Part shown: positions 8,098-18,000 of the stretch, piece by piece
Position numbering within the stretch: position 1 is the stretch's first letter
Layout: each line of letters opens with the position of its first letter
Assembly: GCA_934525625.1 (NCBI GenBank)
Contig: CAKSZL010000004.1
Coordinates: 62,001-126,000, forward strand
Length of the DNA stretch: 64,000 bases
Direction of reading: 5' to 3'
Source of the DNA: an uncultured Burkholderiaceae bacterium
GTDB taxonomy: Bacteria > Pseudomonadota > Gammaproteobacteria > Burkholderiales > Burkholderiaceae_B
Program-made: the position numbers and the translations under genes
The notes under the pieces: generated by a model
What the model was told of the DNA's origin: nothing
Databases searched by the model: none
What the model saw: the letters and a program-made list of their open reading frames with translations, nothing else

Positions 8098-8277
8098 CTA
8101 GAACCCGCCTGCCGCGCCCAGCCACATGAGACCGGGGATGCTGGCGCCCCAGACCATGACCAGTACGATGTCGGCCAACATGGCGCCGCGCGTCAGGCGC
8201 CCCGGCTGCCGCCGACGGGGTTGGGGCGAAGGGGGAAACGGCCATTTGCCGCGGGATTCAAAACGCTGTGTTTGCAT
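8098..8277 (-). CDS. Small single-span membrane protein, probably SOS-controlled
   Basis: A 59-residue protein: a basic, Pro/Arg-rich N-terminal tail of about 30 residues followed by one hydrophobic helix (MLADIVLVMVWGASIPGLMW, residues 33-52) ending LGAAGGF. I do not recognise a named family. ATG 8277 is favoured by the AGGTG ribosome-binding site five bases upstream; the open frame extends to 8334 without a better start. Two LexA-type boxes lie 60-100 bases upstream in the position expected for a promoter. Known SOS-induced small membrane proteins (SidA of Caulobacter, for example) block cell division, which suggests but does not prove a similar role. Confidence 0.55.
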   Translation of the reverse strand: MQTQRFESRGKWPFPPSPQPRRRQPGRLTRGAMLADIVLVMVWGASIPGLMWLGAAGGF

Positions 8278-8336
8278 TGCGCACCTCGCTAGTGTTTGTT
8301 TTGTGCTGCTTTTTTGTGCTACCTCATACAGCAAAA

Positions 8337-8352
8337 CTGTTTATTCATACAG
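8337..8352. promoter_or_regulatory. LexA (SOS) box 1
   Basis: CTGTTTATTCATACAG fits the CTGT-N8-ACAG consensus exactly. It lies 60 bases upstream of the ATG of the minus-strand small membrane protein gene. Confidence 0.6.
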
Positions 8353-8361
8353 TGATTAATA

Positions 8362-8377
8362 CTGTACAAAAAAACAG
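8362..8377. promoter_or_regulatory. LexA (SOS) box 2
   Basis: CTGTACAAAAAAACAG fits CTGT-N8-ACAG exactly and is preceded by TA, as in the extended consensus. With box 1 it forms a pair whose centres are 25 bases apart. The intervening TACAGTGATTAATACTGTA is itself an inverted repeat. Confidence 0.6.
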
Positions 8378-8379
8378 CA

Positions 8380-8702
8380 ATGCGCGCAACAAGATTTTGC
8401 ACCTGATTTCTACGCCCGGCTCCTAGCCCCCCTTCCCTTGGCGCGCCATAACCGCCGACGCGCTCCCGCCCGGCTCCCCCATCGCGAGCCAGCCCTCGGC
8501 CCGGCCTCGCAACCGCTATATACGACCGAATATCCACTTTAGTCTAATAAGGCTTCCGTACCCGCCCCAACTGAGGTCAAATCGTTGCAGGACAAGGGTT
8601 TTGGCGGGATGTAAGTAGGCGCGGCATTTTTTTGCGCGCTCTATAATGCCCTTACAAAACCAAGGTTTTTATTAGATTCAACCACAGCGAATGGAGTTCG
8701 TT
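8380..8702 (+). promoter_or_regulatory. Upstream region of the formate dehydrogenase operon
   Basis: About 320 bases without a credible gene. TATAAT at 8642-8647, 55 bases before the fdnG start, is a good -10 box, but no convincing -35 stands at the right distance, so an activator may be needed. A CGCTATATA half-site at 8514-8522 resembles half of a molybdate-regulator (ModE) site, but the partner half is poor. The fdnG ribosome-binding site GGAG is at 8692-8695. Confidence 0.4.
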
Positions 8703-11700
8703 ATGAACATGTCAATTTCGCGCCGAGGCTTTTTAAAGCTGGCGGGTGCGGGCATTGCGGCAGCAACGTCGCTAGGAGCCATGGGCTTCAGCGACGCGGA
8801 GGCCGCTGAAGCTGCGCACGTACGGCCGTTCAAGCTGGCCACCATGACCGAAGCCCGCAACATCTGTACGTACTGTTCGGTCGCCTGCGGAATCATCATG
8901 TATTCCAAGGGCGATCTCAGCGCCGGCGAAAAGGCCGAGCTGGTCCACATCGAAGGCGATGCCGACCACCCCACCAACCGCGGCACGCTCTGTCCCAAGG
9001 GCGCGGCGCTGAAGGATTTCGTCAAGGCCAAAACCCGCCTGACCAAGCCGCGCCATCGCGCCCCCGGCAGCGACAAATTCCAGGAAATCTCCTGGGACGA
9101 GGCCCTCGACAAGATCGCCCGCGCCATCAAGGACGATCGCGACGCCAATCTCATCGAGAAGAACGCCGCGGGCCTTACCGTCAATCGTTGGACGACCGCT
9201 GGCTTTCTTGCCGCTTCGGCCACCACCAACGAAACGGCCTGGGCGACATGGAAAGTCGTTCGTTCGCTAGGTATAGTCGGATTCGATAACCAGGCGCGCG
9301 TCTGACACGGCCCCACGGTGTCCAGTTTGGGCCCGACATTTGGCCGTGGAGCGATGACGAACTCCTGGACCGACATTAAAAATACCGACCTTGTCATCAT
9401 CATGGGCGGCAATGCCGCTGAAGCGCACCCGTGCGGCTTCAAATGGGTGACCGAGGCCAAGCATCATCGCGGCGCGAAGCTGATCGTGGTCGATCCACGC
9501 TTCAATCGCTCGGCGAGCGTTGCCGATTACTATGCCCCCATCCGTCCCGGTTCGGACATCGCCTTCCTCATGGGCGTGATCCGCTGGTGTATCGAGAACG
9601 ACAAGGTGCAGTGGGACTACGTCCGCAACTACACCAACGTGTCCTATCTCGTACGCGAAGACTTCGGCTGGCAAGACGGCATGTTCACCGGCTACGACGA
9701 GGCGAAGCGCGAATACGACCAAACGAGCTGGGAATACCAGATCGGCGATGACGGCTACGTGCTCACCGACGAAACGCTGGAAAACCCGCGCACCGTCTGG
9801 CAGCTGCTGAAAAAACACGTCAGCATCTACACGCCCGAATTCGTGGAAAACGTCTGCGGCACGCCCAAGGACCGCTACCTGAAGATCTGCGAAATGATCG
9901 GGGAATGCTCGTCGCCGACGAAAACCATGACCTCGATGTACGCGCTCGGCTGGACGCAGCACTCCAAGGGCTCGCAGAACATCCGCGGCATGGCCATGCT
10001 GCAGCTTCTGCTGGGCAACATCGGCGTGCCGGGCGGCGGCATGAACGCGCTGCGCGGCCACTCCAACATCCAAGGTCTCACCGACGTGGGCCTGATGTCG
10101 AACCTGATCCCCGGCTATCTGGCGATACCGAAGGAATCGGAACCCGACTTCGCCACCTACATGTCCACCCGCGCCAACAAGCCGCTGCGCCCCAACCAGA
10201 TGAGCTACTGGCAGAACTACAACAAGTTCTTCGTCAGTTTCCTCAAGACGCTCTGGGGCGACAAGGCCACGGCCGCCAACGGCTGGGGCTACGACTGGCT
10301 GCCCAAGCTCGACATCCGGGAGTACGACGGCCTGCGCATGTTCGACATGATGTCCAAAGGACAGGTGAACCTCTATTTCTGTCAGGGATTCAATCCTATC
10401 CTGGCCTTCCCCAACCGGGGCAAGCTGACCGAGGCGTTCTCCAAGCTGAAGATGCTCGTGGTCATGGATCCGCTCGAAACCGAAACCGCTTCGTTCTGGG
10501 AAAACCACGGCATCTACAACGACGTCGATTCCGCCAAGATCCAGACCGAAGTCCTGGAGCTGCCCACCACGTGTTTCGCCGAGGACGAAGGCGCCATCGT
10601 AAGTTCGGGCCGCTGGCTGCAATGGCACTATGCGGGGGTCACCCCTCCGGGCGAGGCCAAACACGACAGCTGGATCATGGCCAATATCTATCTCAGGGTG
10701 AAAAAGCTCTACGAGAAGGAAGGCGGCAAGGCTCCCGAGGCCATCATGAATCTCAACTGGGACTACGCGGACCCCGCCAATCCCACGGCGCCCGAACTCG
10801 CTCAAGAACTGAACGGCCGCGCGCTCGAAACGGTCTATGATCCCGCCGACCCAAGCAAGGTGCTGCTCGAAAAAGGCAAGCTGCTGTCCACCTTCGGCCA
10901 GATGCGGGACGACGGCACCACCTCGGGCGCCTGCTGGATCTATACCGGCTGCTACACCGAGGCCGGCAACATGATGGCGCGCCGCGACAACAGCGACCCG
11001 TCGGGCATGGGCGTGTTCCAGAACTGGTCCTTCTCCTGGCCCGCCAACCGCAGGGTGCTGTACAACCGCGCTTCCTGCGACCTGGACGGCAAGCCATGGG
11101 ATCCGAAACGGGTGCTCGTCGAGTGGAATGGCGAGAAATGGGTGGGTGCGGACGTCCCGGACATCGCCCTGACCGCCAAGCCGCGCGAGGTCGGGCCGTT
11201 CATCATGAACCCCGAGGGCACCAGCCGCTTCTTCAGCCGCAGGCTGATGCGCGACGGCCCCTTCCCGACCCACATGGAGCCCTTCGAAAGCCCCATCGCC
11301 AACCCGCTGAATCCGTCGATGCGCGGCAATCCCGCCGCGCGCATATTCGAGGGCGACGTGGCGCAGCTGGGCGACAGCTCGGAGTTCCCGTTCGTGGCTA
11401 CCTCCTATCGCCTAACCGAGCACTTCCACTACTGGACCAAGCACAACTACGTGAACGCCGTGAACCAGCCCGAGTTCTTCGTCGAAATCAGCGAAGAACT
11501 GGCGGCCGAGCGCGGCATCAAGAAAGGCGGCATGGTTCGCGTCTGGAGCAAGCGCGGCCAGGTATGGGCGAAAGCGGTGGTAACCAAGCGCATCCGGCCT
11601 CTAGTCTGCGACGGCAAAACCGTCCATGTCATCGGCATTCCTTTGCACTGGGGCTTCAAGGGCGCGGCGCGCAAGGGCTTCGGCCCGAACACGCTGGGGC

Positions 11701-11786
11701 CGTTCGTTGGCGACGCCAATATCGATACGCCGGAATTCAAGGCGTATCTCGTCAATATTGAACCCGCTTCGGAGGTCAAAGCATGA
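8703..11786 (+). CDS. fdnG: Formate dehydrogenase-N type, catalytic alpha subunit (selenoprotein, Sec201)
   Basis: A 1027-residue molybdopterin (bis-MGD) selenoenzyme oxidising formate in the periplasm. Residues 5-11 (SRRGFLK) form a twin-arginine export signal. A [4Fe-4S] site follows (CTYCSVACG with a later LCPKG). At 9303-9305 an in-frame TGA interrupts the frame in the context ARV-Sec-HGPTV, the exact selenocysteine context of E. coli FdnG/FdoG, and downstream similarity continues unbroken ([31 protein letters not shown]). A SECIS-like hairpin directly follows. Start 8703 is chosen from GGAG eight bases upstream. It overlaps fdnH by ATGA. Ordinary gene finders would split it in two. Confidence 0.95.
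9306..9348 (+). promoter_or_regulatory. Bacterial SECIS element for selenocysteine insertion
   Basis: Immediately after the UGA, CACGGCC (9306-9312) pairs perfectly with GGCCGTG (9342-9348). An apical stem GTCC/GGGC (9320-9323 with 9329-9332) closes a loop AGTTT containing the GU pair expected for SelB binding, with T9319 placed to bulge below it. Distance and shape match known bacterial SECIS elements. Confidence 0.85.
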
Positions 11787-17904: not shown

Positions 17905-18000
17905 GGGAGGGCTTCGTCCCCGGTGGGGCGGCCGGACTTCAAATCCGGTTGGGGCAGCGAGCCTGTCCCGGGTGGGTTCGACTCCCATGCCCTTCCGCCA
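17905..18000 (+). tRNA. selC: tRNA-Sec (anticodon TCA)
   Basis: A 96-base tRNA with the long acceptor typical of tRNA-Sec: GGGAGGGC (17905-17912) pairs over eight bases with GCCCTTCC, with one G-U. The anticodon TCA is at 17939-17941 in the loop CTTCAAA on a perfect GCCGGA/TCCGGT-type stem. A long variable arm (TTGGGGCAGCGAGCCTGTCC region), a T loop GTTCGACTC and an encoded GCCA end follow. It sits 92 bases after selB. Just upstream CTCCC can pair with the first five bases of the tRNA, and a GTGAT-N3-ATCAC palindrome lies at 17870-17882. Confidence 0.96.

Follow-up and report, generated by a model that had tools for sequence, protein, structure and literature searches.

SOS-induced small membrane proteins are a known kind of effector. 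SidA of Caulobacter crescentus is described as small, membrane-anchored, SOS-controlled and not homologous to SulA, and a division block has been reported for it (PMC6851548). SosA of Staphylococcus and YneA of Bacillus each carry a single membrane helix, as described in the corresponding reports (PMC6851548, PMC13396833); that of SosA is placed at residues 10–30 and accompanied by an outside C-terminal part, YneA carries an outside LysM domain (PMC13396833), and genes of this type are described as commonly lying beside lexA, which the inhibitor genes of Gram-positive bacteria usually adjoin (PMC6851548). SulA of Escherichia coli (PF03846) is also SOS-induced, and acts as a cytosolic inhibitor of FtsZ. 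TisB, from the same organism, is a short hydrophobic SOS-induced membrane peptide, a depolarising type I toxin accompanied by an antisense RNA.

The locus analysed here is a 59-codon gene within a 64-kb stretch of DNA (hereafter, the window). Its product follows the pattern of the small membrane SOS inhibitors in having one predicted helix and in being encoded behind LexA boxes, and the likeness to SidA, SosA and YneA was drawn by comparing descriptions. A division block is reported for SidA and is proposed for this protein; in contrast to SosA, its helix lies at the very C-terminus; unlike YneA, it has no outside LysM domain (no Pfam match); and in the genome of the nearest named relative (G001), the gene does not lie near lexA, as those of the SosA/YneA type commonly do. 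It shares with SulA the purpose proposed below, but matches neither PF03846 nor the NCBIfam SulA model, and it differs from TisB in that neither a charged helix face nor a known antitoxin RNA was seen. The open-access literature that was searched contained no description of this protein family, nor any account of the way in which cell division is halted upon DNA damage in Alcaligenaceae or in betaproteobacteria as a whole. The family appears to be new within a known kind, and constitutes a concrete, conserved and nearly always single-copy candidate for the division stop during DNA damage.

The small gene and its candidate LexA boxes

The features of the locus are collected in Table 1. Both exact CTGT-N8-ACAG sites that the original prediction had placed 60–100 nt upstream of the gene were confirmed in the sequence, 25 nt apart, and they are the only occurrences of the motif in the window, for which shuffles expect 0.53. 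When the window was shuffled 100 times, 12 of the shuffled sequences had at least two sites somewhere, so that two sites by themselves are weak evidence; a candidate pair 25 nt apart before one gene, and retained in relatives, is not. Each 20-mer agrees with the E. coli consensus at 15 of 20 positions.

Table 1. Coordinates in the window of the small gene, its parts and the upstream sites.
Feature	Position	Strand	Remarks and basis
59-codon gene, predicted single-pass membrane protein	8098..8277	-	ATG 8275-8277, stop 8098-8100; homologues, dN/dS
C-terminal membrane helix, about residues 34-57	8107..8178	-	skeleton D36, W43, P48, G54, G58, with G58 directly past the helix end; prediction
KWPFPP motif, residues 11-16	8230..8247	-	proline/arginine-rich part, thought cytoplasmic; relatives' alignment
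GAGG Shine-Dalgarno	8284..8287	-	6 nt ahead of ATG, read from sequence
Gene-proximal candidate LexA box, exact CTGT-N8-ACAG	8337..8352	.	identical in L001
Gene-distal candidate LexA box, exact CTGT-N8-ACAG	8362..8377	.	identical in L001

The nearest named relative is Mesopusillimonas faecipullorum (locus L001, genome G001), at 92% identity. Between the window and this locus both boxes are unchanged in flanking DNA that has diverged, and within the gene 28 of the 33 changed codons are synonymous and 30 of the 37 coding differences fall at third positions (dN 0.039, dS 2.46, dN/dS near 0.016). Judged by this substitution pattern the small gene is real, and the prediction of a 59-codon gene with its own ribosome-binding site was borne out. 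An alternative reading of 78 aa from TTG 8334, present in the mechanical ORF list, is not favoured, because close relatives align from the ATG. A crude consensus scan revealed neither a consensus sigma-70 promoter nor a terminator at the gene.

The single C-terminal membrane helix that had also been claimed agrees with the predictions made here. Kyte-Doolittle means range from 1.2 to 1.84 for 19-residue windows over residues 27–58, and AlphaFold2, run on 33 sequences, returned a single helix at residues 28–56 (mean pLDDT 70), beyond which only three residues are left. The first 33 residues include eight K/R and one D/E, there are no charged residues in 37–59, and the hydrophobic moment of the helix is 0.04 over residues 37–54. 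The protein very probably has an inner-membrane topology. No Pfam or NCBIfam model matched the window protein or the one relative scanned with it, at E up to 1. Among the matches listed, those relatives that bear a name are called hypothetical or uncharacterised; the single exception is a UniRef entry labelled RDD family protein, a label that the Pfam and NCBIfam scans did not support.

Conservation of the protein and of the boxes

A protein search returned 33 relatives of the small protein, and a profile built from 16 diverse members matched 592 protein clusters, of which 120 were listed. Across 83 distinct C-termini, compared after removal of one trailing residue from rows ending in GLA, W43 and G58 are invariant, D36 is always D or E, P48 and G54 are each altered once, and the final residue is F, Y or L. 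Outside this skeleton the sequence is variable: KWPFPP is common and not universal, and the N-terminal part ranges from about 15 residues (locus L112) up to the long alanine/proline-rich stretches of the Achromobacter type. Diverged members retain little beyond the helix skeleton, and LexA-type boxes are still present in them. The periodicity of conservation along the helix peaks near the helical value (98 degrees), although a placement of the conserved residues on a single helix face was not significant (permutation p 0.11). A further set of 70 named loci was collected with the peptide IPGLMWLG as a search pattern, so the invariance of this peptide among them is partly built in; the profile searches carry less of this bias.

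Upstream DNA was examined in 95 of 208 gene-bearing genomes, a sample merged from 30 weak matches, the 30 best matches of a second profile, the matches of that profile in a sample of Burkholderiales and 40 genomes chosen so that other groups were represented as well, several of which also supplied named loci (see below). One of them, G068, entered the sample although its first piece was already known to lack an exact box, and no genome was dropped. A LexA-type box was found upstream in all 95 genomes, exact in 80 and with one mismatch in 15. In 67 genomes an exact box lies directly before the gene, no more than 470 nt from the stop codon; the frequency of an exact box among shuffled 470-nt regions is 0.56%. 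Two or three exact boxes stand directly before the gene in 44 genomes, with a spacing between the first two of 18 nt in 20 of them and of 25–34 nt in 24. In another 13 genomes the exact box lies 1.3–2.0 kb upstream, with a radical SAM gene between it and the small gene (10 of these were seen in the initial upstream DNA and 3 after it was extended). The one-mismatch boxes are found directly before the gene in two genomes (G068 and G078) and ahead of the radical SAM gene in 13, and each of the 15 outscores every one of 30 shuffled versions of the region in which it lies.

The 70 named loci gave a similar picture, with two exact boxes in 29, one in 8, one at a distance in 21 and a one-mismatch box in 8. 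As 4 loci lack sufficient upstream DNA, the base of this count is 66, and a box was found in 66 of 66 (58 exact, 8 one-mismatch); the shuffle comparison refers to the 15 one-mismatch boxes of the genome set, and the two sets overlap, so that their counts are not independent. No further pair of exact boxes within 40 nt was found across the 782 kb of these loci. The putative boxes are thus conserved together with the gene across species. In the suggested check for conservation of the reading frame together with paired boxes, a box was found in 95 of 95 genomes and an exact pair in 44; the other 51 are without two exact boxes, some of them having a single box. Loss of the boxes with retention of the reading frame, which had been named as the pattern that would speak against the original prediction, was seen in none of the 95 (80 exact, 15 one-mismatch). 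The broader claim, that this may be an undescribed SOS effector of Alcaligenaceae, gained support, given the joint presence of frame and box in these genomes and the lack of any matching model or description in the searches made.

Occurrence in the family and probable place in the LexA regulon

Within the family to which G001 belongs, the second profile (A3, 25 rows) had a match in 208 of 268 genomes, with a single copy in 205 and two copies in 3. The named relatives are Alcaligenaceae, to which Bordetella, Achromobacter and numerous environmental genera belong. In samples of Burkholderiales, the first profile matched 8 of 399 genomes and the second 6 of 300, with at most 15 and at most 21 candidates scored per genome, so that very diverged copies could escape; all these matches fell within the family, and spread outside it was accordingly rejected.

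LexA was found in 250 of the 268 family genomes. The small gene is present in 204 of these 250 and in 4 of the 18 LexA-less genomes, which include very small ones and perhaps also incomplete ones (Fisher p 3e-7, kinship ignored). As the other 46 LexA-bearing genomes have no match, the SOS response can do without the gene. G144–G150 and G190–G200 are LexA-bearing groups of this kind, and the seven genomes G144–G150, when scanned, also lacked a tandem exact LexA site; groups such as G144–G150 may use another inhibitor. SulA (PF03846) was matched in one of 101 family genomes (G215, 25.9 bits against a Pfam cut-off of 23.1), and this genome is without the small gene. This single match is possibly ImuA, since SulA models give a weak match to the G001 ImuA as well. 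In a control over 14 genomes the search matched E. coli only, and a diverged SulA may escape it. SulA as the existing inhibitor of the family was rejected on this count of 1 in 101, and with that one genome lacking the small gene the role of inhibitor looks vacant.

The motif also stands before lexA and imuA in G001, the genome in which these two upstream regions were examined. This genome holds 32 exact sites, compared with 14 for a reversed control pattern, so many of the 32 are chance occurrences. Eight further stretches of G001 were inspected, and the motif was found at lexA, at imuA and at an integron integrase gene, the other boxes not lying at evident SOS genes. The box at the integrase gene of this Mesopusillimonas genome is exact and stands just before the start of the gene (L091:1544-1559), with the same 20-mer in L092. 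A LexA box in this position is known for integrons.

Among 22 genomes selected for having two boxes at the small gene, the tandem site was unique to that gene in all 22, including G237, where three boxes follow one another. As this is the only tandem LexA operator in these genomes, the role of the small gene could be tested directly in an environmental relative. No tandem site was found in 20 genomes without the small gene. Three genomes in which the box lies ahead of a radical SAM gene (hereafter, operon type) were also scanned, and a tandem site occurred elsewhere in two and nowhere in one. The tandem CTGT-N8-ACAG sites of these two genomes, at G031:C137:8386-8425 and G041:C1:1977655-1977694, are identical in sequence. 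Double boxes are described as typical of products that are harmful when produced prematurely, such as those of colicin operons (PMC2994835).

LexA control of the small gene is well supported at the level of sequence. From the boxes and the known biology of the SOS response, we consider it nearly certain that the gene would be repressed by LexA and induced by DNA damage.

A possible role in division arrest, weighed against other roles

The best explanation, to which we give a probability of about one half, is that the product of the gene, kept under tight repression and induced in the SOS response, is a single-pass protein of the inner membrane and would block septation through its helix. In an undamaged cell, LexA dimers on the two adjacent boxes would hold the gene off. 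Upon DNA damage, RecA filaments would trigger the self-cleavage of LexA and the promoter would open, yielding a small bitopic protein whose N-terminus, basic and rich in proline, would lie in the cytoplasm and whose C-terminal helix would sit in the inner membrane. This helix may then pack against a divisome membrane protein (FtsW, FtsI/FtsL or FtsN), so that septal wall synthesis would be blocked until repair is finished, as with SidA, YneA and SosA. The resemblance to these three proteins lies in the small size, the single helix and the position behind LexA boxes, in a group with SulA found in 1 of 101 genomes, and it is because of this resemblance that division arrest through helix-helix contact is favoured over the other roles considered below.

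The YneA work bears on this proposal on both sides. The YneA helix is reported to bind TM7 of FtsW, and so reaches the divisome, and FtsW is suggested there as the target of several inhibitors of this kind (PMC13396833). In the same report, the YneA helix alone localises without inhibiting and the outside LysM domain is required (PMC13396833), which counts against a helix-only inhibitor, as the small protein has almost nothing outside. More tentatively, we put forward the stronger form of the proposal, namely an SOS division checkpoint of Alcaligenaceae, unrelated to SulA, made of little more than a helix and encoded behind what is in many genomes the sole tandem LexA operator, that would block the septal synthase within the plane of the membrane. 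Such an effector would be, as far as known, the first in Alcaligenaceae, and would mean that a helix alone suffices to inhibit.

TisB is an SOS-controlled membrane toxin (PMC11575346, PMC8145889), and a protein acting in the same manner would insert into the inner membrane, lower the proton motive force and lead the damaged cell into dormancy; the tight double boxes, perhaps aided by an antisense RNA, would keep it off. The small size and hydrophobic character of the protein and its conserved LexA boxes are what such a toxin would have, yet its helix presents no charged face (moment 0.04, residues 37–59 uncharged), and the retention of D36, W43, P48, G54 and G58 over large divergence is more readily explained by a protein partner than by a bulk effect on the membrane. 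A search of the window against Rfam at gathering cut-offs found no antitoxin RNA, although one of an undescribed kind would escape it. We regard depolarisation as unlikely, and as the most probable of the alternatives to division arrest.

The neighbourhood of the gene bears on two further readings. Neighbours were counted by tblastn in the 70 named loci. In 67 of these, the small gene is followed in the same orientation by rplS and a NUDIX gene (for a CoA pyrophosphatase), the loci without rplS being L001, L020 and L039 (the last cut by a contig end), and in 62 rsgA comes after them. A plasmid origin was rejected on this arrangement and on a 791-nt region without a plasmid match. The upstream neighbours vary: an acyl-CoA dehydrogenase-like gene is found in 27 loci, a peroxiredoxin gene in 26 and a radical SAM gene, on the same strand, in 26. 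With the neighbours varying and the boxes retained, the predicted regulation has outlived changes of neighbours.

In the Bordetella/Achromobacter type the small gene follows a radical SAM gene of the PA0069 type, and the LexA box lies ahead of the latter. In all 26 operon-type loci checked, this gene stands between the box and the small gene, and we infer that the two share one transcript. Such an arrangement would suit a membrane protein that assists DNA or envelope repair, such as a partner of the PA0069-type protein under the common box. Against this, the other 44 named loci have no radical SAM gene in the DNA examined, which is short in some, and most of them have boxes of their own before the small gene; we hold a repair partner to be somewhat less probable than depolarisation. 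The one radical SAM member scanned matches NF033668, and the PA0069-family protein at L049:4480-5850 shows a weak match to spore photoproduct lyase. A LexA box stands ahead of the PA0069-family gene in the 26 operon-type loci, and a literature search for PA0069 or Rv2578c together with LexA found nothing.

The activity of transporters and proteases is known to be tuned by some small membrane proteins, and the protein could have a target of this sort, be it a transporter, a respiratory complex, a secretion system or a membrane protease. The steady neighbours (rplS, the CoA pyrophosphatase gene and rsgA) suggest none of these, and we place this reading below that of a repair partner. That boxes or reading frame are chance features, as the 12 shuffles with two or more sites might suggest, has practically no probability and was rejected, with boxes in 95 of 95 genomes and a dN/dS near 0.016.

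In the window, as in L001, the small gene lies between a cold-shock gene and a formate dehydrogenase operon. The alpha subunit of this formate dehydrogenase (8691-11786) contains an in-frame TGA with a SECIS element (Rfam SECIS_3) at 9300-9358, and the window also holds a tRNA-Sec at 17905-18000; the subunit is a selenoprotein of the ordinary kind, whose reading frame is broken up by simple ORF finding.
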